The position numbers and the translations under genes are program-made. This document shows, in pieces, positions 803 to 26,429 of a DNA stretch of 34,033 bases. Numbering within the stretch: position 1 is the stretch's first letter; every line of letters starts with the position of its first letter. Where the stretch lies: the NCBI GenBank assembly GCA_900316355.1, contig ONCQ01000027.1, positions 1 through 34,033 on the forward strand, in the 5' to 3' direction. A model generated the notes under the pieces. That model was not told where the DNA came from. It worked only from the letters and a program-made list of their open reading frames with translations, and made no database searches. Source of the stretch: an uncultured Prevotellaceae bacterium (lineage in GTDB: Bacteria; Bacteroidota; Bacteroidia; Bacteroidales; Bacteroidaceae).

Positions 803-1243
803 TCACGCTACGGGAATCTTGTCGATGCGCTTCTGATGGCGCCCGCCCTCGAAGTCGGTGGCGAAGAACTCGTCCATGATCTTGGCGGCCATGTCGGTGT
901 CGATGAAGCGGCCGGGCATGACGAGGACGTTGGCGTTGTTGTGCTGGCGAATCAGATGGGCTATCTCGGGAATCCAGCAGAGGCCTGCGCGGATGCTCTG
1001 GTGCTTGTTGAGCGTCATGTTGATGCCCTCGCCGCTGCCGCAGATGGCGATGCCGGGATACACCTCGCCCGCCTCGATGCCGCGCGCCAGGGCGTGACCG
1101 AAGTCGCTGTAGTCGCACGACTCCTCAGAGTAGGTGCCGTAGTCCTTGTAGGCGTAGCCCTTCGCGTCGAGGTACTGCTTGACGAACTGTTTAAGGGCAT
1201 AGCCAGCATGGTCGCTGGCTAACCCTATTACTTTAACGTCCAT
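803..1243 (-). CDS. rpiB: Ribose-5-phosphate isomerase B
   Basis: Interconverts ribose-5-phosphate and ribulose-5-phosphate in the non-oxidative pentose phosphate pathway. The 146-residue length is normal for RpiB/LacAB. The N-terminal ASDHAG (residues 9-14) and CGSGEGINMTLNKH, with the expected catalytic Cys68, are clearly visible. The start ATG shares one base with the tkt stop (TAATG at 1241-1245), so translation is probably coupled and both proteins serve the same pathway. A hairpin terminator follows. The function is well supported by the motifs; allose-6-phosphate activity, known for some RpiB proteins, cannot be judged here. Confidence 0.96.
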   Translation of the reverse strand: MDVKVIGLASDHAGYALKQFVKQYLDAKGYAYKDYGTYSEESCDYSDFGHALARGIEAGEVYPGIAICGSGEGINMTLNKHQSIRAGLCWIPEIAHLIRQHNNANVLVMPGRFIDTDMAAKIMDEFFATDFEGGRHQKRIDKIPVA

Positions 1244-3258
1244 TACAGAATCGCTTTTACTTGCTTATACACATTCTCTGCGGTGAAGCCCAGCTTCTCG
1301 TCGAGCACCTTGTAGGGAGCGCTGAAGCCGAAGCTCTGGAGGCCCCAGACGGTGCCGTCGGCGCCAACGAGACCTTCGAGGTTCACGGGCAGACCGGCAG
1401 TGAGGCCGAACTTCTTCACGCCGCAGGGCAGGATAGCCTGCTGGTAGTCCTTGCTCTGGCTGCGGAACAGGCCTTCGGAGGGCACGCTGACGATGCGCAC
1501 CTTGATGCCGTCCTTGCGCAGGAGCTCGGTGCCGGCCACGAGGGTCGAGACCTCAGAGCCGCTGGCGAGGAGGATGACATCGGGGTTCTCGTCGGAGCCA
1601 GCCACGATGTAAGCGCCTTTCTCGGCCTGGCGGTAGTCGTTGCCTGCGGGCAGGTCGGCGATGTTCTGACGGCTGAGGATGAGGGCTGTGGGGCTGTCGG
1701 TGTTCTCCATTGCCAGGCGCCATGCTTCGGTGGTCTCAGCGGCATCGGCGGGACGCAGCACGAGGGTGGAGTTCTTGCCGTGGTGGTTCTTCAGCTTCTC
1801 CATGAGGCGGATCTGTGCTTCCTGCTCCACGGGCTCGTGGGTAGGACCGTCCTCGCCGACGCGGAAGGCGTCGTGGGTCCAGATGAACTTCACGGGCAGC
1901 TCCATGAGGGCTGCCATGCGCACGGCGGGCTTCATGTAGTCGGAGAATACGAAGAAGGTGCCGCAGGCGGGGATGACGCCGCCGTGGAGGGCCATGCCGA
2001 TGCAGCAGCAGGCCATCGTCAGCTCAGCCACGCCAGCCTGGAAGAAGGCGCCGCTGAAGTCGCCGGCCTTGAGGGCGTGGGTCTTCTTCAGGAAGCCGTC
2101 GGTCTTATCGGAGTTGCTGAGGTCGGCAGAGGCGCAGATCATGTTGGGCACCTGCTCGGCGAGGACGCTGAGGACGGCAGCGCTGGCGTTGCGCGTGGCG
2201 TCGCCGCTCTTCTGCTGCACCTTGCTCCAGTCCACCTTCGGGGCCTTGCCGCTGAACCATTCGGCCTGTGCGGCAGCGCACTCGGGATTGGCCTTTGCCC
2301 AGGCAGCCTCTTCGGCCTTGCGCTCGGCCACAATCTTCTTCAGCTCTTCGGCGCGACGGGCATAGAGCTCCTTGACATCGTCGAAGATAACGAACGGATT
2401 CTCAGCGTCTCCGCCAAGGTTGGTTATAGTTTTCTTGTAAGCGTCTCCGCCGAGGGGAGCACCGTGGGTCTTGCAGTTGCGCTCGTAGCTGGAACCGTCC
2501 TCCTTGAGGGCGCCCTTGCCCATGATGCACTTGCCGATGATGAGGGCGGGCTTGCCCTTCACGGCCTTGGCCTGCTCGATGGCCTTGCGGATCTGGGCGG
2601 CATCGTTGCCGTTGATCTCGAAGACCTCCCAGCCGAGGGCGCGGTACTTGGCAGCGGTGTCCTCGTTCATGACTTCCTTGGTCTCTGTGGAGAGCTGGAT
2701 ATCGTTGCTGTCATAGAACATCACCACGTTGTCCAGACCCAGCGAGCCTGCGATGCGGGCTGCGCCCTGAGAGATCTCTTCCTGCACGCCGCCGTCGGAG
2801 ATGTAGATGTAGATGGTCTCCTTCGCGAAGGTCGGGTTGCCGGTGTGGGCGGCCAGGAACTTGGCTGCGATGGCAGCGCCGATGCCGAAGGTGTGGCCCT
2901 GGCCGAGAGGGCCGCTGGTGTTCTCGATGCCGCGCTTGGGGTCAGCCTCGGGGTGGCCGGGGGTGGGAGAGCCCCACTGGCGGAGCTGCTGCAGCTCGTC
3001 GAGGGAGAACTTGCCGATGAGGGCCAGCTGGCTGTAGAGCATAGGCGCCATGTGGCCGGGGTCGAGGAAGAAGCGGTCGCGACCTACCCAGCAGGGATCG
3101 GAGGGGTTGTAGTTGAGGTACTCGCTGTAGAGCACGTTGATGAAATCTGCGCCACCCATAGCGCCGCCCGGGTGACCGCTCTTGGCCTTTTCGACCATGG
3201 ACGCAGCCAGAATACGGATGTTGTCTGCTGCGTGGTTCAAAACCTTAATGTCGTTCAT
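1243..3258 (-). CDS. tkt: Transketolase
   Basis: Thiamine-diphosphate enzyme moving two-carbon units between sugar phosphates. The 671 residues match full-length bacterial transketolases. Visible motifs are GHPGG (28-32), the TPP/Mg-binding SDGGVQEEISQG (from residue 154) with Asn185 in YDSND, and a C-terminal pyrimidine-binding and transketolase_C region. The frame is open upstream to 3357, but that extension is translated from a heptamer repeat array and begins upstream of a -7 box at 3347-3354, so the ATG at 3258 (MNDIKVLNHA) is chosen. It overlaps rpiB by one base. Confidence 0.97.
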   Translation of the reverse strand: MNDIKVLNHAADNIRILAASMVEKAKSGHPGGAMGGADFINVLYSEYLNYNPSDPCWVGRDRFFLDPGHMAPMLYSQLALIGKFSLDELQQLRQWGSPTPGHPEADPKRGIENTSGPLGQGHTFGIGAAIAAKFLAAHTGNPTFAKETIYIYISDGGVQEEISQGAARIAGSLGLDNVVMFYDSNDIQLSTETKEVMNEDTAAKYRALGWEVFEINGNDAAQIRKAIEQAKAVKGKPALIIGKCIMGKGALKEDGSSYERNCKTHGAPLGGDAYKKTITNLGGDAENPFVIFDDVKELYARRAEELKKIVAERKAEEAAWAKANPECAAAQAEWFSGKAPKVDWSKVQQKSGDATRNASAAVLSVLAEQVPNMICASADLSNSDKTDGFLKKTHALKAGDFSGAFFQAGVAELTMACCCIGMALHGGVIPACGTFFVFSDYMKPAVRMAALMELPVKFIWTHDAFRVGEDGPTHEPVEQEAQIRLMEKLKNHHGKNSTLVLRPADAAETTEAWRLAMENTDSPTALILSRQNIADLPAGNDYRQAEKGAYIVAGSDENPDVILLASGSEVSTLVAGTELLRKDGIKVRIVSVPSEGLFRSQSKDYQQAILPCGVKKFGLTAGLPVNLEGLVGADGTVWGLQSFGFSAPYKVLDEKLGFTAENVYKQVKAIL

Positions 3259-3293
3259 GTTTTTTGTTAGAGAATATATGAATTGTAAATGAT

Positions 3294-3335
3294 GAATGAC
3301 GAATGACGAATGACGAATGACGAATGACGAATGAC
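3294..3335. repeat. Six tandem GAATGAC heptamers in tkt leader
   Basis: Six perfect 7-bp copies, with degenerate flanking half-units. They lie between the predicted tkt transcription start and its ATG, so they would be transcribed as GUCAUUC repeats in the 5' leader. The same heptamer, in the opposite orientation relative to transcription, lies ahead of ruvC. Confidence 0.95.
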
Positions 3336-3346
3336 GAATTGGGTGG

Positions 3347-3354
3347 CAAATATA
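3347..3354 (-). promoter_or_regulatory. Bacteroidota -7 box for tkt-rpiB
   Basis: On the minus strand this reads TATATTTG, an exact match to TAnnTTTG. It is about 90 bases upstream of the tkt ATG. I see no good -33 TTG at 19-21 bases. Confidence 0.55.
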
Positions 3355-3459
3355 CACAAAGATTCTGAATCTGCATCGTCATCCTCGTTTTTTTGCTAAA
3401 AAAGCTCCATATTATGCATTTTTTTGCTGCCGTTGAGCGTGTGAATGAAGAAATATGTT

Positions 3460-3467
3460 TAAGTTTG
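3460..3467 (+). promoter_or_regulatory. Bacteroidota -7 box for the kinase-STAS-NRPS operon
   Basis: TAAGTTTG matches TAnnTTTG. It implies transcription starting near 3473, which rules out an ATG at 3455 and favours starts at 3494 or 3512. The nearest upstream TTG has a spacer of about 24 bases, longer than usual. Confidence 0.5.
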
Positions 3468-3511
3468 TAGCCAAAACTATCCCAATAACACCTATGAAGG
3501 GACCTTTAGAT

Positions 3512-3943
3512 ATGAAAAATGCTTCTGATCCGACGTGTGATGTGCTGGTCATCCGGAACGATGTTCATGAGGTGACGGCGCTCAGCGCGTTCCTGAAGGC
3601 AGCGTTCGAGCGGATGCAGCTCAACCCGTCTGTGGCGCGCCAGTTCCGGCTGGCGGTGGAGGAGTCTGTGGTGAATGTGATAGACTATGCTTACCCCATC
3701 GGCACAGAGGGCCAAATAGAGGTGCGCATGCGGGCGTGCGACGGCGCCGTGGTGGCCACCATCATCGACAGCGGCACACCCTTCGACCCCACGGCACAGG
3801 CGTCAGCCGATGTCTCGCTTGCTGCCGATGACCGTCAGATAGGCGGTCTGGGTATCCATCTGATGCGCGAAATCGTGGATGACATCCGCTATCAGCGCAT
3901 CGACGGACAGAATGTGCTGACATTAACGAAGATGTTAAACTAA
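3512..3943 (+). CDS. RsbW/SpoIIAB-like ATP-binding anti-sigma kinase
   Basis: A small GHKL-type ATP-binding protein (143 aa from this start). The N-box EESVVNVIDYAYP (about 50-62), the G1 motif IIDSGTPFDP (84-93) and the glycine lid GGLGIHLM (111-118) are those of HATPase_c_2 proteins, which bind sigma factors or other partners and phosphorylate STAS antagonists on Ser. The next gene is such a STAS protein, so this looks like a partner-switching pair. ATGs at 3455 and 3494 are alternatives; 3455 precedes the likely transcript start. 3512 has AAGGGA about 9 bases upstream. No sigma factor or SpoIIE phosphatase lies in the window, so the target is unknown. Confidence 0.88.
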   Translation: MKNASDPTCDVLVIRNDVHEVTALSAFLKAAFERMQLNPSVARQFRLAVEESVVNVIDYAYPIGTEGQIEVRMRACDGAVVATIIDSGTPFDPTAQASADVSLAADDRQIGGLGIHLMREIVDDIRYQRIDGQNVLTLTKMLN

Positions 3944-3974
3944 TATTCATTAAATAAATAAAATACAAGTAATT

Positions 3975-4277
3975 ATGAAAACAAACATTGAAGAGAAAGA
4001 TGGCAAGTTCATTGCCACATTGGACGGAGAAATGGACACTGCAGCTGCGCTGGAAGCTGAAGAGGTGCTGAAGCCTCTGTACAAGACCGACGGCAAAGAT
4101 GTCATCGTGGACTGCACGAAACTGGAGTATATCGCTTCCAGCGGTCTGCGCATCCTGCTGAGCATCCTGAAGGGCGCGAAAGCCGGTGGCAGCCGCGTGG
4201 TGATGAAGGGCGTGAACGAGGACATCCAAACCGTCTTCAAGATGACCGGCTTCATCAGCCTCTTTGATTTCGAATAA
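3975..4277 (+). CDS. STAS-domain anti-sigma factor antagonist
   Basis: A 100-residue single STAS domain. The phosphorylation loop reads EYIASSGLRILLSI (51-64). Ser55/Ser56 align with the Ser that RsbW/SpoIIAB-type kinases phosphorylate; Ala54 replaces the common Asp before it. It starts 31 bases after the kinase gene, whose product is its expected partner: the dephosphorylated form would capture the kinase and free the kinase's target. The NRPS begins 45 bases later on the same strand with no terminator between, suggesting one transcript. Regulation of the NRPS by this pair is inference from position. Confidence 0.92.
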   Translation: MKTNIEEKDGKFIATLDGEMDTAAALEAEEVLKPLYKTDGKDVIVDCTKLEYIASSGLRILLSILKGAKAGGSRVVMKGVNEDIQTVFKMTGFISLFDFE

Positions 4278-4322
4278 GACTCCGGCCTACTGGAGTAGTG
4301 ACAGATACCGATAACGACCTTT

Positions 4323-7300
4323 ATGAACCTATCATCCATGACAATCCCACCTATCATCCATCTCATACAGCGTCAGGCATTGCAGACGCCTAACAATATA
4401 GCATTAGTTTATCATTCTGCCAGTTACACCTATCGTGAGGTGATGTTACAGGCTGGCAGTATTGCTCGGCAGCTTGGCCAATGCGGATTAAGCAAAGAGG
4501 CTGTCGTGGGCATTCTGATTCCGCGCAATCAGTGGATGGCGATGGCGCCTTTGGGCGTCTTGGCCGCCGGTTGTGCCTATATGCCCTTAGACCCGACCTA
4601 TCCTGCCGAGCGCCTGAACTTCATGCTCAGCGACAGCGGCGCCAAGCTGCTCATTGCCGACCGCGAAGTGCTGGCCAGCAGCGGGCTGACGGTTGAGGGG
4701 GGATGTGTGATGACAAAGGTCGGCACAGTGCCTGTCCTCTACACTGATGAGTTGGAACAGCTGAAGACCCCCGCGCCCCCCTCTCCCGAAGAGAACATCA
4801 GCGCGGCATCGCTGGCCCTGCTCATCTACACCAGCGGCTCCACGGGCCAGCCCAAGGGCTGCATGATAGAACAGCGCAACATCACCTGCAATGCGGAAGA
4901 GACGAGAAGCACCATGGGCCTCGACAGCGACTGCCGCGTGGCCTCGTATGCCAGCTTCTCGTTTGTGCCCACCGTGCATGATATTTTCGGCACGCTCTCG
5001 GCAGGCGCCACACTCTATATCATTCCCGAGGAGGTGAGGTTCGACTTCGAACGGCTGGCGCAGTTCATCAACGACAACGCCATCACGCACATCATCATGA
5101 GCACGATGACGGGCCGCCAGTTCGTGACGATGTACGACTGCCCGTCGCTGCGCTTCCTCTCTGTCGGAGGTGAGAAGCTGGAACCGGTGACGCCGACGGC
5201 AGGACTGACCTTCTTGAACATCTACGGTTCGTCGGAGGCTTGCGGCATGATTACGTGCCACGCCGTCAGAGGCGACGAGGAGAACATCCCTATTGGCCAG
5301 GCGCCAGGAACATACCGCCTATATATTGTCGGCGAAGACGGCCAGCCCGTGGCCGACGGCGAGGCGGGCGAGCTGTGGATCAGCGGTCCGCAGCTGTGCC
5401 GAGGCTATCTGAACCATCCCGAGCTGACGGCCAATGTCTTCATCCCGAATCCCTTCAACGACAAGCATGAGGCAGGCTATGAGCGCGCATTCCGCACGGG
5501 CGACTTCGTGCGCCGCGATGCCGAGGGAAGGCTGCTGTTTGCAGGCCGCCGCGACGGGTTGGTGAAGGTACGTGGCTTCCGCGTGGAGCTGCGCGAGGTG
5601 GAGGCGGCAGTCCTCACCTGCCCGGGTGTCACGGGTGCCACCCTCCAGTCGGCCAGCGACACGCTGAACGGCACCTATATCGTGGCCTATGTCACGGGCG
5701 AGAAGACGCTTGACGCAGATGCCATCAGACAGCATGTGGCAGCGCTGAAGCCCGAGTACATGGTGCCGGAGGTGGTGATGCAGCTGGACGAGATTCCCCG
5801 CAATGCCAACGGCAAGGTGGACCGTGCGCGTCTGCCCAAGCCCGCCAGAAGCGAGAAGAGGAGAGGGGAGGGCGAAGCCTTTGTTCCCGAGAACGACCTG
5901 CAGCGCGACCTGCATGAGCTGATAGCCACGGAGATAGGCTCCGAGGCGTTTGGCCTCAACACGCCATTGCTGTATGCTGGCATGACATCGGTGACGGCTA
6001 TCAAGGTGGCCAGCCTCATCCACCGGAAGTACGGCGTGAGCCTCAACGCGCAGGCTATCACGAAAGACTTCTCGCTGAGGGATATCGAAGAGGCCGTAGC
6101 GGGCAGTGGGAAACCTGCCGCAGAGCGCCCTCAGCCCTCAGCCTTCAGCCATCCTACATCAGTGCCGCTCTCGAATCCCCAGATAGGCGTCTATATCGAT
6201 TGCCTCAACAATCCTGAGTCCACCATCTATAACATCCCGATGAAGGCTGGCTTGCCACTCTCATGCGACACGGAGGTGCTCGCCAAGGCGGTGACGGACA
6301 TCATCAAGGCACATCCGGCGCTCAGCGTTCATTTTGAAAACGACGGCACTGACACCCTGCAGGTCACTGACCCCGAGCAGAAGGTGGAGATTCCCGTGCG
6401 CACGATGTCAGAGGCCGAGCTCGCTTCCTACAAGTACGCTTTCGTGAAGCCCTTCGACCTGGAGGCAGGGCCTGTTTACAGGGCGGAAATCGTCAAGACA
6501 GAAAAACAGGTGTATCTCCTCACCGATTTCCACCATCTCGTGGCCGACGGAGGTTCCTATGATTTGTTCTACCGTCAGCTCTGCAGCGTCCTCGAGGGTA
6601 ACGCCATAGACCTCGAAGACCTCAGCTATGCCGACTATGTCACGGCCGAGAAAGAGGCCGTCGGCGGCGAAGACTATGCCGCTGCACAGGCCTACTTCGC
6701 CCGGCGCCTGGACGGCGTGGAGGGGATGACAGAAATCTTCCCCGACCTCACGAATCCCAGCCCCGAAGGTGTCGTTGCAGAAGTCGCGGCCCCCTTGGAT
6801 TTCGATGCCGTCAACAGCTTCTGCAGGCAGTATGCGCCGCTGGGCATCACTCCCGCCCACCTCGCGCTGGCGGGCGTGTACTACACGCTTTCGCGCTTCG
6901 CCAACAGCGAGCGTGTCTGCATGATGACCGTCAGCAGCGGCCGCAGCAACGTGCGCATTGCCGACACGATGGGAATGTTCGTCAACACGCTCGTGCTCAG
7001 CAGCCTGATAGGCGCACAGAAAGTCATCGACTTCATCCGCGAGACAAGCGAGGATTTCAGAGAGACGCTCAGCCATGAGAACTATCCCTTTGCGCAGATT
7101 GTCAGCGACTATGGCCTCACGGCCGAAATCATGTTCGCCTATCAAATGGGCGTCATCAATCACTATCACTGCAAAGACGCGGAGCTGCAACTCGAGAATC
7201 TCGAACAGAATAATGTGCCCAAGTTCCCCCTCGCCATCTTCGTGAGAGAGCATGACGGCACGCCCAGCGTGTGTCTTGAGTACAACAACGGGCGCTATTC

Positions 7301-10300
7301 CCAGGGCATGATGCAGAGCCTGGCCGACAGCATCTGCCAGGCGATAGCAGCCTTCATCCGCGAGCCGGAGAGTAGCCTGCTCAGCGTGTCACTCGTGGGC
7401 GGAGAGCAGGAAACGCTGTTGGATAGCTTCAACCAGACGGATGTGGACTACGATACGACGCAGACCGTAGTATCACTCTTCCGCCGTCAGGCGAAGGCCA
7501 CGCCGGATGCTGAAGCTGTGGTCTTCGAAGACCATCGCTACACTTACGCACAGGTTGACGATATCAGCGACCGCATCGCAGGCTATATCCTGTCCAAAGG
7601 ACTGGGCGTGGGTGATGCCGTGTCTGTCATCATCCCTCGTTGCGAGTGGATGGCGATTGCCTCACTCGGTATTCTGAAGGCAGGATGTGCCTATCAGCCA
7701 CTTGACCCCAGCTACCCGAAGGAGCGCCTGAACTTCATGATGCAGGATGCCAGTGCCAAGCTGCTCATCGCCGACGAACAGCTGCGTGACCTCGCTGATG
7801 AATATCAGGGCGAGGTGCTGCTGACGAAGGATATCCCCCAACTCTCAACAGCCAACTCTCAACAGCCAATAGCCAACTGCCTCAAGCCCTCCGACCGTTT
7901 CATCCTCCTCTACACCAGCGGTTCCACGGGTGTGCCTAAGGGCTGCCAGCTGACACACGGCAATCTCGTCTGTTTCTGCCATTGGTATCAGCGTTACTAC
8001 AGTCTGAAGCCTGGGCATAACGTGGCCGCTTACGCAAGTTACGGCTTCGACGCATGTATGATGGATCTGTATCCTGCCTTGACCTGTGGTGCTTCGGTAT
8101 ATATCATCCCCGAGGAACTGCGTCTCGACCTCATAGCCCTCAATGACTACTTCGAACAGAACAAGATTACTCATTCGTTTATGACCACGCAGGTGGGCTA
8201 TCAGTTTGGCACAAGCATTGAGAACCACTCGCTGCTTCACCTCTCAACGGGTGGTGAGAAGTTGGCATCTCTGGCTCCGCCAACCGGCTATGAATTCCAT
8301 AATGCATACGGACCGACAGAATGTACTATCTTCACGACCACCTATACAGTAGATAAGAAGTTGAAGGAGATACCTATCGGCAAGCCTCTCGACAACATGC
8401 GTCTGTATATTGTCGATCAGCAGGGACACCGTCTGCCTATAGGTGCTGCCGGAGAATTGTGGATTAGCGGTCCACAGGTGTCTCTCGGTTATCTGAACCG
8501 TCCGGAAAAGACGGCAGAGGTGTTTATCGACAACCCCTTCGTAACTGATGATCATAAATATTCTCGCTGCTACCGCACCGGTGACATTGTGCGCTACCTG
8601 CCCTCGGGCGACATCCAGTTCGTAGGCCGTCAGGACGGGCAGGTGAAAATCCGCGGCTTCCGCATCGAACTCAAGGAAGTCGAGGCCATCATCCGTGAGT
8701 TCCCCGGCATCAAGGACGCCACCGTGCAGGCCTTCGACGAGGATGGCGGAGGCAAGTTCATCGCGGCCTACATCGTCAGTGACGAGCAAGTAGATATCGA
8801 GGCCCTGAACAACTTCATCCTCGACCAGAAGCCACCCTACATGGTGCCTGCCGTGACGATGCAGATTGACGCTATCCCGCTGAACCAGAACCAGAAGGTG
8901 AACAAGCGGGCCCTGCCGAAGCCCGTTCTGTCGGTTGCGACTGAGTCGCAACAAGCAGTACAAGCTCCTCTCAATGTGCTGGAGCAGGAAATCCACGGCA
9001 TCATCGCCAAGATCATCAACACCGAGGACTTCGGCCTGACGACGGTGCTGGGCTATGTCGGCCTGACATCCATCATGGCCATCAAGCTGGCTATCCAGAT
9101 CAACAAGCGCTTCGGCGTTGCCCTGGAGTCGAAGTCCCTGGCCAAGACGGGGACACTGCAGAGCATCGAGAACGAGATTCTCAACCATCTCCTCAATGCC
9201 CCCGCGACGGCAGCAGGGGCTACCGCTGCCGCTCTGCCGTTAGGCACCGGTCAGGTTACAGACGTTCCGCTCTCCTACGCACAAATCGGCGTCTATGTCG
9301 ATTGCGTGAAGCAACCCACATCCACGGTGTACAATATCCCGGCGCTCATCCGCTTCCCGAAAGACACCGACGTGGAGCTGCTGGCCCGCTCCATTGAAAC
9401 GCTCATCAACGCGCATCCGCAGTTCAAGGTGCACTTTGACACGCGAGGCAGTGAGATTGTGCAAATCATGGATCCCAACCAGCCCGTTGACATCAGACAG
9501 AGTCGCCTAAGCAGCGCCGAAATGGAGAAATACAAGGTGGATTTTGTCAAGCCCTTTAACCTGAGACAAGGACCCCTGTATCGCATGGAGATTGTCACCA
9601 CCGAACAGGATATCTGCCTCTTGGCCGACGTTCATCACCTGATTTTCGACGGCGGCTCACTAGATGTGTTCATGAACCAGCTGTGCGACCTCATGAACGC
9701 TCGTGAGATAGAACCCGAGGCCTTCAGCTACGCCGACTTCGTCGCCGATGAGAAAGCCGCTGAGAACTCGCCGAGCTACCAGGAGGCCAAGGATTTCTTC
9801 AACGAAAGACTGGGGAAGGTAGAGGGCGTCACCGAGGTGCCCTCAGACCTGACCAATCCCATGGAGCAGGGCACCACCAGCGAGGTCTTCTGCAGGATGA
9901 ACTTCGCTGCTGTCGAGGACTTCTGCAAGAAGAACAATCTTGCGCCCTCGCATCTCACGCTCGCTGCCGTTTTCTACACGCTGTCGCGCTTCACCAACAA
10001 CGAGCAGATCTGCATCACCACCATCTCCGGAGGCCGCAGCGACCTGCGCATAAGCAATACCACAGGAATGTTCGTCAACACGCTGGCATTGAGCGCACAG
10101 ATTGACGACCAGAGCGTGATGGACTTCCTGAAAGAGACCGGCAAGAACTTCGACGATACGCTCAGCCACGAGAAATATCCCTTCTCGCAGATTGCCAATG
10201 ACTACGACCTCTCGGCCGAGATTATGTTTGCCTATCAGATGGGCGTCATTGACCACTATATCGTCAATGGCAAGGAGCTGGAGATAGAGTCGCTGGAGCT

Positions 10301-13300
10301 GAACACACCCAAGTTCCGCATAGCCTTCTATATCCAAGAGAAAAACGGCGTGCCCGGCGTGCTCGTGGAGTACGACAACGGGCGCTACAGCCCGCAGCTG
10401 ATGGAGAGCATGGCGCAGTCGGTCTGCAATGCCGTCGAGGCCTTCATCCGTCAGCCGGAAGTGGCTCTGAAGAGCGTTTCGCTGCTCGATGCACAGCAGA
10501 CGACGTTGCTTGACAGCTTCAACGATACCGAGGTGCCCTACGACGACACCCAGACAGTCGTATCGCTGTTCCGTCGTCAGGTACAGTTGACACCAGACAA
10601 CATGGCTGTTGTCTATCACGACAACAAATACACCTATCGCGAGGCGGACGACCTGTCGGAGCGCATCGCATCACTTCTCGTTGGCAAGGGGCTTGGCAAA
10701 GAGGATGTGGTATCAATTATCATTCCTCGTTGCGAATGGATGCCCATTGCAGCACTTGGTGTGATGAAGGCAGGATGTGCTTACCAGCCACTCGACCCAA
10801 GCTATCCGCAGGAGCGCTTGAACTTCATGATTAAGGACGCAGCCGCCAAACTGCTCATCGCTGACGAGTCATTGCGCGACCTGGTGAGCGAATACGACGG
10901 CGAGGTGCTGCTGACGAAGGACATCAAGCAGTTGCCGGTAGCCAGCAAGCCCGTAGATGTCACACCTGACCCCGCTGACCTGTACATCCTCCTCTATACT
11001 TCGGGATCAACAGGGCTGCCAAAGGGCTGCCAGCTGGAGCATCACAACCTGGCAGCGTTCTGCCATTGGTATCAGCGTCGCTTTGAGCTGAAAGCAGAAC
11101 ATCATGTATCATGCTATGCAAGCTACGGCTTCGACTGCTGCATGATGGACCTTTACCCTGCACTGACCTGTGGCGCCTGCGTATATATCATAGGTGACGA
11201 CATCCGCTTGACCTTGCCTGAGGTGAATGCTTACTTCGAGGAGAACCACATCACCCACTCATTTATGACTACGCAGGTGGCATATCAGTTCGCTACCAAC
11301 TATGACAACCACTCGCTGTTGCACTTGATTGCAGCAGGTGAGAAGCTGGCATCGCTGGCGCCTCCAAAGAACTTCAAGATGCACAACGGCTATGGACCGA
11401 CGGAGGGGACTATCCTCATCACAGAGTATGAAGTGGATAAGGAACTGAAGGATATTCCAGTGGGCAAACCGTTGGACAACTCGCGCCTGTATATCGTTGA
11501 CAAGCAGTTCAACCGTCTGCCACTGGGTGCATTAGGCGAGCTGTGGATTAGCGGTCCTCACGTCACCAGAAGCTACCTCAACCGTCCGGAAAAGACTGCT
11601 GAAGTATATATCAATAATCCGTTCAGTGACGATCCTAAGTTCTCGCGTATCTATCGCACCGGTGACATCGTACGCTATCAGCCCGACGGGAACATCCAGT
11701 TCGTGGGGCGTAAGGACGGACAGGTGAAGATACGCGGATTCCGCATCGAGATGAAGGAGGTGGAGGCTGTCATACGACAGTATCCTGGCATCAAGGATGC
11801 CACCGTTCAGGCCTTCGACTACGAGAACGGCGGCAAGTTCATCGCGGCCTACATCGTCAGCGATGAGTCCGTGGACATCAAGGACCTGAACGCCTTCATA
11901 GGCAAGCAGAAACCGCCTTATATGATTCCGGCGGCTACGATGCAGATTGATGCTATCCCGCTGAACCAGAACCAGAAGGTGAACCGCAAGGCGCTGCCGG
12001 CTCCCGTGATTCAGGCTGCCGACCACGAATATGTGGAGCCTGCTAACGACACCGAGAAGCTTTTCTGTAAGATTTTCAGTGATGTCCTGTCATTGGACAA
12101 GATTGGCGCCACTGACAACTTCTTCGAGCTGGGCGGCACATCGCTGATGGTGACAAAGGTCATCATAGAGGCCGACAAGGCCGGGCATCATGTGGCTTAC
12201 GGCGATGTCTTCCCGCATCCTACACCGCGTCTGCTGGCACAGTTTGTGACGGGCGAGGCACCTGTGGAGATAACCGACGAGGAGGTGACGAACTTCGACT
12301 ACAGCGGCATCGATGCCATCCTGCAGAGGAACACCGTGGACACGTTCCTCAAGGGTGAGCGCCAGCCGCTGGGCAATGTCCTTCTCACCGGCGCTACCGG
12401 CTACCTCGGCATCCATGTGCTGCGCGAACTCATTGAGTCCGATGCGACCACCATCACCTGCTTCGTCCGCGGCAAGGACCAGGCTGCTGCCGAGCATCGC
12501 CTGAAGAACTTGCTGTTCTACTACTTCGAGACATCGTACAAGGAACTCTTCGGCAGCCGTCTCTTCGTGGTGAATGGCGATGTGACGCAGGACATGACAA
12601 GCATCCTGCCGGAGGGACATCCCGCCATCGACACAGTCTTCAACTGTGCTGCCAACGTGAAACACTTCTCCAAGGGCACAGACATCGAAGACGTGAACAT
12701 CGGCGGCGCACAGCGCTGTGTGGAATTCTGCCTGAAGGCCGGCGCCCGACTCGTGCACGTCTCCACCACCTCCGTGGGCGATATATGGATTGACCGTGGC
12801 GACGGGAAGCAAGTACCCAACCTCGACGAGCGCAAGCTGTGGTTCGGACAGTTCCTCGACAACCGTTACATCCACTCCAAGTTCCTCGCAGAGCGTGTGG
12901 TGCTGGACGCTGTCGCACACCACGGCCTCAGTGCCAAGGTGATGCGCGTGGGGAATCTCGCACCGCGCAGCTACGATGGTGAGTTCCAGGTTAACTTCAA
13001 CAGCAACAGCTACATGGGCCGCCTCAAGGTGTTCTACACCCTCGGTTGCTGCCCCTACAACAGCTACGACGAGCTGACCGAGCTGTCGCCCATCGACGAG
13101 ACCGCCAAGGCCGTCGTGCTCCTCGCTTCTTCGCCCAAGGACTGCACGGTGTTCCAACCCTTCAATAACCATACCGAGTTGTTGGGCGACGTGCTACGCC
13201 TCATGAGCAAAGTCGGCAATGAGATTCGCTTTGTGGAAGCAGACCAGTTCGAGCAGACCATCGCCGTAGCCGGACAAGACCCTGAGAAGGCTAAACTGCT

Positions 13301-13478
13301 CTCGGCCATGCTCGCCTATCAAGACATGGTGCACGGCCAGAAGGCTGTCTTCGTGGAGCGCGACAACCGCTACACCTGCTCCGTACTCCACCGCCTTGGC
13401 TTCCGCTGGAGCGACACCTCGTGGGACTATGTAGAACGTATGCTAACCGCCATCGCTGGATTCGGATTCTTTGAGTAA
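4323..13478 (+). CDS. Three-module NRPS with terminal reductase (A-T-C-A-T-C-A-T-R)
   Basis: A 3,051-residue cytoplasmic assembly line. A1: YTSGSTG near 168, NIYGSSE near 299, catalytic Lys498. T1: Ser556 in GMTSVTA. C1: HHLVADG at 737-743. A2: TSGSTG near 1198, FDACMM with Asp1243, NAYGPTE near 1327. T2: Ser1583 in GLTSIMA. C2: HHLIFDG at 1771-1777. A3: TSGSTG near 2226, FDCCMM with Asp2271, NGYGPTE near 2355. T3: Ser2607 in GGTSLMV. Reductase: TGATGYLG near 2690 and the YIHSK active site at 2849-2853. Colinearity predicts a tripeptide released by NAD(P)H reduction as an aldehyde. By alignment to GrsA positions I read pocket residues V-P-H-I-S-G-I-G-M (A1), D-A-M-F-S-G-A-I-F (A2) and D-C-M-F-I-A-G-I-L (A3); I cannot assign substrates. 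A1 lacks the usual Asp (Val215). A2 and A3 are very alike, suggesting module duplication. Linkers near 6120-6160 and 7837-7890 contain repeat-like DNA. ATG 4338 is an alternative start. Confidence 0.95.
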   Translation: MNLSSMTIPPIIHLIQRQALQTPNNIALVYHSASYTYREVMLQAGSIARQLGQCGLSKEAVVGILIPRNQWMAMAPLGVLAAGCAYMPLDPTYPAERLNFMLSDSGAKLLIADREVLASSGLTVEGGCVMTKVGTVPVLYTDELEQLKTPAPPSPEENISAASLALLIYTSGSTGQPKGCMIEQRNITCNAEETRSTMGLDSDCRVASYASFSFVPTVHDIFGTLSAGATLYIIPEEVRFDFERLAQFINDNAITHIIMSTMTGRQFVTMYDCPSLRFLSVGGEKLEPVTPTAGLTFLNIYGSSEACGMITCHAVRGDEENIPIGQAPGTYRLYIVGEDGQPVADGEAGELWISGPQLCRGYLNHPELTANVFIPNPFNDKHEAGYERAFRTGDFVRRDAEGRLLFAGRRDGLVKVRGFRVELREVEAAVLTCPGVTGATLQSASDTLNGTYIVAYVTGEKTLDADAIRQHVAALKPEYMVPEVVMQLDEIPRNANGKVDRARLPKPARSEKRRGEGEAFVPENDLQRDLHELIATEIGSEAFGLNTPLLYAGMTSVTAIKVASLIHRKYGVSLNAQAITKDFSLRDIEEAVAGSGKPAAERPQPSAFSHPTSVPLSNPQIGVYIDCLNNPESTIYNIPMKAGLPLSCDTEVLAKAVTDIIKAHPALSVHFENDGTDTLQVTDPEQKVEIPVRTMSEAELASYKYAFVKPFDLEAGPVYRAEIVKTEKQVYLLTDFHHLVADGGSYDLFYRQLCSVLEGNAIDLEDLSYADYVTAEKEAVGGEDYAAAQAYFARRLDGVEGMTEIFPDLTNPSPEGVVAEVAAPLDFDAVNSFCRQYAPLGITPAHLALAGVYYTLSRFANSERVCMMTVSSGRSNVRIADTMGMFVNTLVLSSLIGAQKVIDFIRETSEDFRETLSHENYPFAQIVSDYGLTAEIMFAYQMGVINHYHCKDAELQLENLEQNNVPKFPLAIFVREHDGTPSVCLEYNNGRYSQGMMQSLADSICQAIAAFIREPESSLLSVSLVGGEQETLLDSFNQTDVDYDTTQTVVSLFRRQAKATPDAEAVVFEDHRYTYAQVDDISDRIAGYILSKGLGVGDAVSVIIPRCEWMAIASLGILKAGCAYQPLDPSYPKERLNFMMQDASAKLLIADEQLRDLADEYQGEVLLTKDIPQLSTANSQQPIANCLKPSDRFILLYTSGSTGVPKGCQLTHGNLVCFCHWYQRYYSLKPGHNVAAYASYGFDACMMDLYPALTCGASVYIIPEELRLDLIALNDYFEQNKITHSFMTTQVGYQFGTSIENHSLLHLSTGGEKLASLAPPTGYEFHNAYGPTECTIFTTTYTVDKKLKEIPIGKPLDNMRLYIVDQQGHRLPIGAAGELWISGPQVSLGYLNRPEKTAEVFIDNPFVTDDHKYSRCYRTGDIVRYLPSGDIQFVGRQDGQVKIRGFRIELKEVEAIIREFPGIKDATVQAFDEDGGGKFIAAYIVSDEQVDIEALNNFILDQKPPYMVPAVTMQIDAIPLNQNQKVNKRALPKPVLSVATESQQAVQAPLNVLEQEIHGIIAKIINTEDFGLTTVLGYVGLTSIMAIKLAIQINKRFGVALESKSLAKTGTLQSIENEILNHLLNAPATAAGATAAALPLGTGQVTDVPLSYAQIGVYVDCVKQPTSTVYNIPALIRFPKDTDVELLARSIETLINAHPQFKVHFDTRGSEIVQIMDPNQPVDIRQSRLSSAEMEKYKVDFVKPFNLRQGPLYRMEIVTTEQDICLLADVHHLIFDGGSLDVFMNQLCDLMNAREIEPEAFSYADFVADEKAAENSPSYQEAKDFFNERLGKVEGVTEVPSDLTNPMEQGTTSEVFCRMNFAAVEDFCKKNNLAPSHLTLAAVFYTLSRFTNNEQICITTISGGRSDLRISNTTGMFVNTLALSAQIDDQSVMDFLKETGKNFDDTLSHEKYPFSQIANDYDLSAEIMFAYQMGVIDHYIVNGKELEIESLELNTPKFRIAFYIQEKNGVPGVLVEYDNGRYSPQLMESMAQSVCNAVEAFIRQPEVALKSVSLLDAQQTTLLDSFNDTEVPYDDTQTVVSLFRRQVQLTPDNMAVVYHDNKYTYREADDLSERIASLLVGKGLGKEDVVSIIIPRCEWMPIAALGVMKAGCAYQPLDPSYPQERLNFMIKDAAAKLLIADESLRDLVSEYDGEVLLTKDIKQLPVASKPVDVTPDPADLYILLYTSGSTGLPKGCQLEHHNLAAFCHWYQRRFELKAEHHVSCYASYGFDCCMMDLYPALTCGACVYIIGDDIRLTLPEVNAYFEENHITHSFMTTQVAYQFATNYDNHSLLHLIAAGEKLASLAPPKNFKMHNGYGPTEGTILITEYEVDKELKDIPVGKPLDNSRLYIVDKQFNRLPLGALGELWISGPHVTRSYLNRPEKTAEVYINNPFSDDPKFSRIYRTGDIVRYQPDGNIQFVGRKDGQVKIRGFRIEMKEVEAVIRQYPGIKDATVQAFDYENGGKFIAAYIVSDESVDIKDLNAFIGKQKPPYMIPAATMQIDAIPLNQNQKVNRKALPAPVIQAADHEYVEPANDTEKLFCKIFSDVLSLDKIGATDNFFELGGTSLMVTKVIIEADKAGHHVAYGDVFPHPTPRLLAQFVTGEAPVEITDEEVTNFDYSGIDAILQRNTVDTFLKGERQPLGNVLLTGATGYLGIHVLRELIESDATTITCFVRGKDQAAAEHRLKNLLFYYFETSYKELFGSRLFVVNGDVTQDMTSILPEGHPAIDTVFNCAANVKHFSKGTDIEDVNIGGAQRCVEFCLKAGARLVHVSTTSVGDIWIDRGDGKQVPNLDERKLWFGQFLDNRYIHSKFLAERVVLDAVAHHGLSAKVMRVGNLAPRSYDGEFQVNFNSNSYMGRLKVFYTLGCCPYNSYDELTELSPIDETAKAVVLLASSPKDCTVFQPFNNHTELLGDVLRLMSKVGNEIRFVEADQFEQTIAVAGQDPEKAKLLSAMLAYQDMVHGQKAVFVERDNRYTCSVLHRLGFRWSDTSWDYVERMLTAIAGFGFFE
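7839..7866 (+). repeat. 14-bp tandem duplication inside NRPS A2 domain
   Basis: CAACTCTCAACAGC occurs twice back to back, followed by a degenerate part. It encodes a Gln/Ser/Asn-rich insertion just before the A3 core motif of adenylation domain 2. The equivalent part of the third adenylation domain has an unrelated sequence of similar length. The unit resembles the spacer repeats seen elsewhere in this window. Confidence 0.85.
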
Positions 13479-25798: not shown

Positions 25799-26377
25799 TC
25801 AGCCTTCCAGGCCGTGAATCTTATCTTTGTTTTTGCGTGCGAACTCCTTCCATGATTTGGCACCTCCGGCAACTGTCGGACGGGAACTCTCAATGAAATG
25901 GCAGTAGGCGGCAGCGAGTCCGTCGGTGGCGTCGAGCCACGGGAGCATCGCATCCTCAGGAATCTTCAGCATCTGCTTGAGCATATAGGCCACCTGTTCC
26001 TTGGAGGCTCCCCCCTGACCTGTGATGGCCATCTTGATCTGCATTGGGGCATATTCGTGGATGGGCACCTGCCGGCTGATGGCTGCGGCCATAGCTACGC
26101 CCTGGGCGCGCCCCAACTTCAGCATCGACTGCACATTCTTTCCAAAAAATGGGGCCTCAATGGCCACCTCGTCAGGAAGATAACTCTCGATGATACCTGT
26201 AATGCGCTCGAAGATACGTCCTAATTTCAGGTAGTGGTCGGCGTACTTGCGCAGGTCGATGACACCCATAGTCACCATCTCCGCTTTGCGGCCGGTGACC
26301 TTGATGACACCGTAGCCCATAATCGTCGTGCCAGGGTCAATACCTAATATGATGCGTTCGGACGGCTTATTCTCCAT
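25799..26377 (-). CDS. ruvC: Holliday junction endonuclease RuvC
   Basis: The resolvase that cuts Holliday junctions with RuvAB. All four acidic catalytic residues are visible: Asp14 in [12 protein letters not shown], Glu74 in AIEAPFFG, and Asp149 and Asp152 in [13 protein letters not shown]. The [15 protein letters not shown] helix is also conserved. 192 residues, slightly longer than E. coli RuvC at the C-terminus. The start codon is the ATG of the last heptamer of a tandem repeat array, and the first residues (MENK) are encoded at the edge of that array. It sits between a DUF4286 gene and the double ABC ATPase, apparently in one operon. Confidence 0.97.
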
Positions 26378-26426
26378 TCGTCATTCTCCATTCTCCATTC
26401 GTCATTCGTCATTCGTCATTCGTCAT
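26371..26426. repeat. Eight tandem heptamers spanning the ruvC start codon
   Basis: Eight 7-bp units alternating between TCGTCAT and TCTCCAT, ending 4 bases from the DUF4286 stop and including the ruvC ATG. On the coding strand each unit reads ATGACGA or ATGGAGA, giving an ATG every seven bases. Confidence 0.95.
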
Positions 26427-26429
26427 TCT

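Follow-up and report, generated by a model that had tools for sequence, protein, structure and literature searches.

The window analysed here, 34,033 nucleotides of contig ONCQ01000027.1 from an uncultured Prevotellaceae bacterium (assembly GCA_900316355.1), carries on its forward strand a serine kinase gene, a gene for a STAS protein and a large nonribosomal peptide synthetase (NRPS) gene in close succession. Kinase/STAS switch genes accompany related NRPS genes far above chance when their closest paralogues serve as a control. We consider it rather probable that a sensory partner-switch cassette controls the output of the NRPS, whether at the protein level or through transcription.

The kinase-STAS-NRPS unit

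The first gene (3512..3943, + strand) encodes a lone version of an RsbW/SpoIIAB-like serine kinase, with a HATPase_c_2 match of 94.6 bits in Pfam and, in a motif scan, boxes that we take to be of the N, G1 and G2 type. The second (3975..4277, + strand) encodes a protein like the anti-sigma antagonists, matching STAS in Pfam (57.3 bits) and ant_ant_sig (69.8 bits, for a cut-off of 53.45). At residue 55 it carries the motif SSGL, mostly invariant across 55 STAS rows and presumably the phosphorylation site, as in SpoIIAA. The third (4323..13478, + strand) encodes an NRPS of 3051 amino acids. An earlier note on this DNA had described the three genes as running in one direction, with gaps of 31 bases (kinase to STAS) and 45 bases (STAS to NRPS) and no terminator; these coordinates were confirmed, and a terminator scan of positions 3240-4500 gave no site on the + strand and a lone terminator-like site on the - strand.

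The domain order of the NRPS is A-T-C-A-T-C-A-T-R (A, adenylation; T, carrier; C, condensation; R, thioester reductase), and Pfam recovers three AMP-binding stretches, two Condensation, three PP-binding and one NAD_binding_4 domain. All on the + strand, A1 (4380..5837) and T1 (5880..6098) are followed by C1 (6216..7457, HHLVADG), A2 (7479..8927), T2 (8976..9188), C2 (9258..10514, HHLIFDG), A3 (10560..12008), T3 (12054..12272, GGTS) and the reductase (12372..13475). The active motifs are kept: two HHxxxDG motifs in the condensation domains and, in the reductase, the NAD(P)-binding GATGYLG and a YxxxK motif (YIHSK), which places the protein among the reductase-ended NRPSs.

The nine-letter codes of the A domains, whose reading rests partly on code positions as we remember them, are VPHISGIGM for A1, DAMFSGAIF for A2 and DCMFIAGIL for A3. 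An Asp at the position equivalent to that in LgrA marks alpha-amino-acid substrates; A1 has Val there, and its substrate is likely a starter unit of another kind. Because of this Val, the tripeptide aldehyde proposed earlier gives way to an N-acyl dipeptide aldehyde as the more likely product. The order in most relatives is C-A-T-C-A-T-R, with HHxxxDG in the first C domain of 64 of 72 such open reading frames (ORFs); the extra A-T-C of the window likely loads an acid, standing in for the relatives' starter C domains, and both kinds of NRPS would likely yield N-acyl dipeptide aldehydes. The final-module codes are strongly conserved among relatives (DAMFSGGIF, DAMFAGGIF, DCMFIAGIL and similar, with a minority differing), which suggests a hydrophobic C-terminal aldehyde residue. 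The A1 code is shared with the first A domain of a second reductase-ended NRPS of the same genome (A-T-C-A-T-R; locus L097 on contig C56, 7328-13444, minus strand) and with that of locus L084 (L105 is apparently the same contig).

The unit is bounded, since an opposite-strand gene (1243-3357, presumably transketolase-like) lies upstream, and a short - strand ORF, then a gene that we take to be phosphoribosyl-pyrophosphate-synthetase-like, lie downstream. A candidate -7 box, TAAGTTTG (3460..3467, + strand), possibly of a promoter for the operon, fits, by pattern only, the consensus of Bacteroidetes-type promoters; as it falls within the longer ORF of the kinase (3455-3943), the ATG at 3512 is the likelier start. 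TANNTTTG occurs 20 times in the window for 9.5 expected, no -33 TTTG matched at 17-24 bases from the TAAGTTTG box, and the two-box Bacteroidetes pattern had no match near the operon. A generic scan of the + strand from 3240 to 4500 gave a single sigma-70-like match, at 3917-3946 ahead of the STAS gene, and no such match in the 45-base gap between STAS and NRPS.

Linkage of partner switches and NRPSs

In a scan of a genome collection of 84,980 species, we retained the best 80 of 137 encoded NRPS relatives, which gave 79 loci, mostly from metagenome-assembled genomes of ruminant-gut Prevotella or Bacteroidales. Profiles for annotating them were derived from the window and from the loci themselves, and domains were identified by Pfam searches of representatives. 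Linkage was counted in 66 of 80 loci, window included; the other 14 hold no NRPS having 3.5 kb of upstream DNA. A co-directional STAS gene lies within 3 kb of the NRPS in 49 of these 66 loci, which bears out the conservation of gene order that the earlier note had proposed to look for. The objection that this order might not be conserved in relatives fails, since the partner-switch pair and the reductase-ended NRPS are conserved together. The proposal that the switch governs the NRPS is supported in this part; the pair may set NRPS output through transcription or by direct contact.

Upstream of the 49 linked STAS genes, our script recognised a sensor-SpoIIE-kinase fusion in 41 cases, a lone kinase in four (the window, L010, L014 and L026) and none in four; among the latter, a kinase frame overlaps the STAS gene in L047, and the genomes of L029 and L036 carry the fusion elsewhere. 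The sensor-bearing SpoIIE phosphatase of a partner switch is thus supplied by fusion in 41 of the 49 linked loci, and would be supplied in trans in the window's genome. In the usual unit of the relatives, the kinase is the C-terminal part of a single dCache-SpoIIE-kinase protein, and a gene for an AlgE-like outer-membrane barrel (family F2) often comes next. The earlier note's 'kinase/STAS pair', both members of which are present, was therefore an understatement: the usual unit is a sensor-phosphatase-kinase protein plus STAS, often with the barrel and sometimes with a phosphopantetheinyl transferase (PPTase). What lies between STAS and NRPS varies: F2 in 20 of the 49 loci, nothing recognised in 17, PPTase and F2 in six and, more rarely, an SNF symporter (4), a serine-dehydratase-like gene (1) or both of these (1).

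Clustering placed F2 in 31 loci; a PPTase occurs in 10 of 79. The F2 of the window's genome matches Alginate_exp in Pfam (45.2 bits, cut-off 25.2), as do 23 of 26 members at E 0.01. Its predicted structure is a barrel of about 18 strands (mean pLDDT, the predicted local distance difference test score, 73) whose best Foldseek matches are to AlgE (E 6e-15); PDB sequences gave no match at E 0.1, so that within the PDB F2 is matched by fold only.

A control was drawn from 101 genomes of the genus, with 19 of 145 STAS rows excluded because their open frame exceeded 300 amino acids. Of the 52 NRPS genes in these genomes, 32 are preceded on the same strand by a STAS gene, at a distance of under 6 kb from the first C domain. 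By identity to the window's STAS protein, linkage to an NRPS is seen for 26 of 33 STAS proteins at 57% or more, for 0 of 47 paralogues at 43-57% and for 6 of 46 below 43%; the 57% cut was chosen after the list was seen. The linkage of kinase/STAS and NRPS is far above chance against this paralogue control, and the 0 of 47 leads us to reject a chance neighbourhood of switch genes and NRPS. The linkage counts of the locus set and the genus set are not independent, because the same contigs occur in both (L084/L105, L051/L104 and L067/L107 are apparently identical), and several genomes give two loci.

Among the seven unlinked STAS genes at or above 57%, two lie on short contigs (5.4 kb in genome G025, 4.1 kb in G042), one in a fragmented cassette (G067) and three in modules whose fetched stretch shows no NRPS (one in G041, two in G081), while that of G040 stands alone. 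The G067 cassette (locus L096, contig C138, 1646-5742) seemingly lies in short ORFs, with pieces of kinase, sensor, SpoIIE, F2 and A domain. Near-full-length F2 (at least 49% identity) was found in 30 genomes of the genus, 29 of them with condensation matches, in a tally of NRPS-positive genomes that includes five with partial or weak condensation matches only; partial F2 in G042 (50%) and G067 (49%), neither of which has a condensation match, was left out of the F2 count. Fisher values for this control carry no correction for relatedness.

A switch apparently split between contigs

If relatives fuse the phosphatase to the kinase, where is the phosphatase for the lone kinase of the window? The SpoIIE phosphatase that the earlier note proposed to seek elsewhere in the genome turned up in three copies, on contigs C20, C28 and C37, of which the C20 copy is the likely partner. 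There, a kinase-less dCache-SpoIIE protein of 593 amino acids is followed by F2 (455 amino acids) and a convergent PPTase gene. The genomes of L010 and L014 likewise have a lone kinase-STAS pair before the NRPS and the same C20-type block elsewhere, with sensor-phosphatase and F2 respectively 64% and 68% identical to those of the window's genome. Other divisions are seen: the L026 genome has SpoIIE-STAS-F2 together, and the L025 genome has F2-kinase-STAS at one place and SpoIIE at another, its cassette being divided over three places. In the 4.2-Mb genome of locus L039 (G104), the SpoIIE sensor query finds 24 matches. In the simplest reading, the window's kinase and STAS protein would answer in trans to the C20 phosphatase. 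As a lone SpoIIE gene by itself proves nothing, the case for C20 is built on its F2-PPTase neighbourhood, on identity and on its clade.

All trees were midpoint-rooted, and those of kinase and STAS were poorly resolved. In the SpoIIE tree, C20, L010 and L014 form one clade (support 100/97), which sits in a 22-row group (96/93) without C28 and C37; in the STAS tree, the window STAS sits in a 22-row group (90/93), again without C28 and C37. The SpoIIE proteins of C28 and C37 appear less likely as cognate phosphatases: they fall outside the 22-row group of C20, and C28 already provides a kinase and a STAS of its own. This exclusion is weakened by L008 and L011, which are NRPS-linked and lie outside the same group. 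The C28 switch (L086, 2945-5659, minus strand) is a dCache-HAMP-SpoIIE-kinase fusion with STAS, in another set of neighbours that we take to be RND-efflux-like genes; at C37 (L087, 7396-9689) the 3' end of the SpoIIE gene overlaps a STAS frame, and no kinase was found beside it.

In a larger SpoIIE tree, about 20 linked loci group apart from the window type, with C28 and C37 nearer to those 20 or so; the row of L079 has a very long branch that carries no meaning. Together with L008 and L011, these loci look like a second NRPS-linked switch lineage, more diverged in STAS, kinase and SpoIIE. An old association with losses and a repeated association are not told apart by these trees, because they are midpoint-rooted; a repeated association of switch and NRPS, if true, would argue for a functional tie.

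A second, different partner-switch pair of the window's genome lies on contig C24 (L089, C24:182000-198000; 7443-10396, minus strand), where STAS and an RsbW-like kinase flank one gene, presumably glycogen-debranching-like. Within the window itself, we found no RNA family over its gathering score and no tRNA. Seven-base tandem repeats occupy 3288-3339 (AATGACG) and 26369-26429 (CATTCGT), both in stretches that look intergenic, and three perfect copies of a 31-base unit lie at 320-413.

Proposed control of the NRPS and comparison with known systems

We infer that the window's three genes form the NRPS-bearing half of a partner-switching cassette with a sensor. On sensing a small molecule, the extracytoplasmic dCache sensor-SpoIIE phosphatase, here that of C20, would dephosphorylate the STAS protein, which the RsbW-like kinase would phosphorylate again. 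The phosphorylation state of STAS would set the amount of NRPS product, the predicted N-acyl dipeptide aldehyde. The PPTase would prime the carriers of the NRPS, and the product would perhaps be exported via the AlgE-like barrel and variable inner-membrane transporters.

Several observations weigh against this reading. Linkage is missing in 17 of 66 loci (in L017 and L085 the module is farther away, in L059 and L079 it is on the opposite strand, and L073 has a sensor-phosphatase without a detected STAS), and L030, counted as linked, has only a STAS-like frame of 62 amino acids. In L039 a lone kinase directly precedes the NRPS; it has no neighbouring STAS, and the genome lacks F2. Switch modules without an NRPS in the fetched stretches occur in G041, G081 (two) and G107, and G040 has a STAS protein of 82% identity with neither kinase nor NRPS nearby, in a genome without a condensation match. 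The second NRPS of the window's own genome, on C56, has no STAS in its fetched stretch, and no STAS-NRPS or kinase-NRPS fusion was seen among the annotated loci. The association is seen only within one genus: in an order survey of 198 genomes, none of the 13 other condensation-positive genomes had a STAS gene on the NRPS contig, at a STAS threshold of E 1e-8 by which more diverged STAS would be missed. In the trees, the window kinase is not separated from that of C28, L008 and L011 stand apart from the window type for SpoIIE, kinase and STAS alike, and the nearness of C28 and C37 to either linked type is beyond the resolution of midpoint rooting; the NRPS-linked switches belong, by sequence, to more than one clade. 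Lone SpoIIE sensors of about 590 amino acids also occur, among the matches listed, in genomes with fused cassettes.

What would the STAS protein act upon? For the last step we lean, tentatively, towards an action of STAS, or of the kinase it frees, on the NRPS itself, by analogy with SiaC acting on SiaD; an undiscovered transcriptional target is less favoured. It is possible, if doubtful, that a small-molecule-sensing switch gates the NRPS directly, by docking of the dephosphorylated STAS or the freed kinase, with the product closing the loop through the sensing and export functions of the cassette.

A classical transcriptional switch, where kinase and STAS control a sigma factor, an extracytoplasmic function (ECF) sigma factor or another regulator encoded elsewhere that drives the NRPS operon and other genes, strikes us as a plausible minority reading. 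A sigma factor is the end point of most partner switches studied so far, and a cassette can lie apart from the NRPS, as a trans-acting regulator can. The window's genome (91% complete) has 12 Sigma70_r2 matches, 11 of them over the cut-off and mostly of ECF size; against this, the SigB/F/G profile gave six matches there and none over its cut-off, the best (108.9 of 234.35 bits) lying in the 377-amino-acid frame to which the best Sigma70_r2 match also belongs. Control of the SigB type is therefore rejected, the Sigma70_r2 and SigB/F/G searches having given no candidate above the SigB/F/G cut-off. Pfam scans of 20 proteins from cassettes or their neighbourhoods turned up no sigma factor, the loci not having been scanned with a sigma profile.

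Alternatively, the NRPS aldehyde or a pyrazinone derived from it might be an autoinducer, exported by the barrel and sensed by the dCache domain, with the output genes elsewhere. We regard such a signal loop as improbable. Genes for a synthase, an outer-membrane barrel and an extracytoplasmic receptor of small molecules do occur together, and pyrazinones derived from leupeptin are described as autoinducers in Klebsiella oxytoca (PMC11480411). However, sensor divergence is not significantly correlated with A-domain codes across 40 loci (partial Mantel r 0.10, p 0.10, with phosphatase-kinase and reductase divergence removed), and we reject autoinducer co-evolution on this result. The absence of any functional tie, with a gene neighbourhood inherited within one genus and a kinase/STAS pair that controls something else, would suit the restriction to that genus, where relatedness inflates all counts, and the modules free of NRPS, but seems very unlikely given that the closest paralogue group of the same genomes is never linked, that linkage persists while the genes between STAS and NRPS vary, and that F2 and PPTase accompany the detached sensor half in the window's genome and those of L010 and L014.

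If a sensor-bearing switch beside an NRPS does control it, this would be a new class of partner-switch output, and control of a megasynthase by phosphorylation would become testable. It would offer a way to switch on the predicted peptide-aldehyde clusters of Prevotella-type bacteria in rumen and gut, with the dCache sensor pointing to elicitors worth screening; from the natural split seen in three genomes, a testable trans partner is predicted.

To our knowledge, partner switches are mostly sigma-factor controls, with few other outputs known. In the Bacillus systems RsbU/RsbW/RsbV and SpoIIE/SpoIIAB/SpoIIAA, as here, a HATPase_c_2 kinase, a STAS antagonist with a conserved Ser and a SpoIIE phosphatase are combined, and among solved structures the window kinase resembles RsbW (6m36, E 1e-8) and the STAS protein SpoIIAA (1auz, E 3e-6). 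Here, by contrast, no SigB/F/G candidate passes the cut-off and the switch is linked to an NRPS. The equivalog scores also fall short (44.4 of 145 bits for the kinase against RsbW, 43.4 of 114.75 bits for STAS against SpoIIAA, and below cut-off for SpoIIAB), so that no stress or sporulation switch of the SigB/SigF type is recognised. Rv1364c, a protein with a sensor, a STAS part and a sigma target of its own, likewise joins phosphatase and kinase domains in one chain, and its structure 3ke6 is the best PDB sequence match of the C20 sensor-phosphatase (E 6e-16); the solved piece holds the RsbU and RsbW domains, whereas the cassette described here has STAS on a chain of its own and a dCache domain as sensor.

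The co-encoding of sensor-PP2C, kinase, partner and enzyme in SiaABCD of Pseudomonas aeruginosa has its parallel in the fused relatives and is split in the window's genome, SiaB and SiaC being compared by description. According to two reports (PMC7278518, PMC8457831), the enzyme, SiaD, is a diguanylate cyclase, SiaB is termed an unusual kinase and the phosphorylated residue of SiaC is Thr-68; here the putative target is an NRPS, the kinase is of the HATPase_c_2 type and STAS carries SSGL. Sensor, phosphatase and kinase are, moreover, usually one protein in the NRPS-linked relatives.

Peptide-aldehyde and pyrazinone synthetases of the gut are reductase-ended NRPSs. The aureusimine synthetase AusA also ends in a thioester reductase; the window NRPS scores 1408.3 bits against the AusA model, under the equivalog cut-off of 2500, has three A domains rather than two, and adjoins a partner switch. 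F2 and the alginate exporter AlgE share the barrel fold and the Alginate_exp profile, at 12% identity. In the literature searched, subscription papers and preprints lying outside it, we found no description of a partner switch joined to an NRPS or to Bacteroidetes, and a text search of a review on STAS-only proteins gave no hit for nonribosomal, secondary metabolite or Bacteroid (PMC8256260). The parts belong to known families; their combination and its likely target are new to the literature searched.

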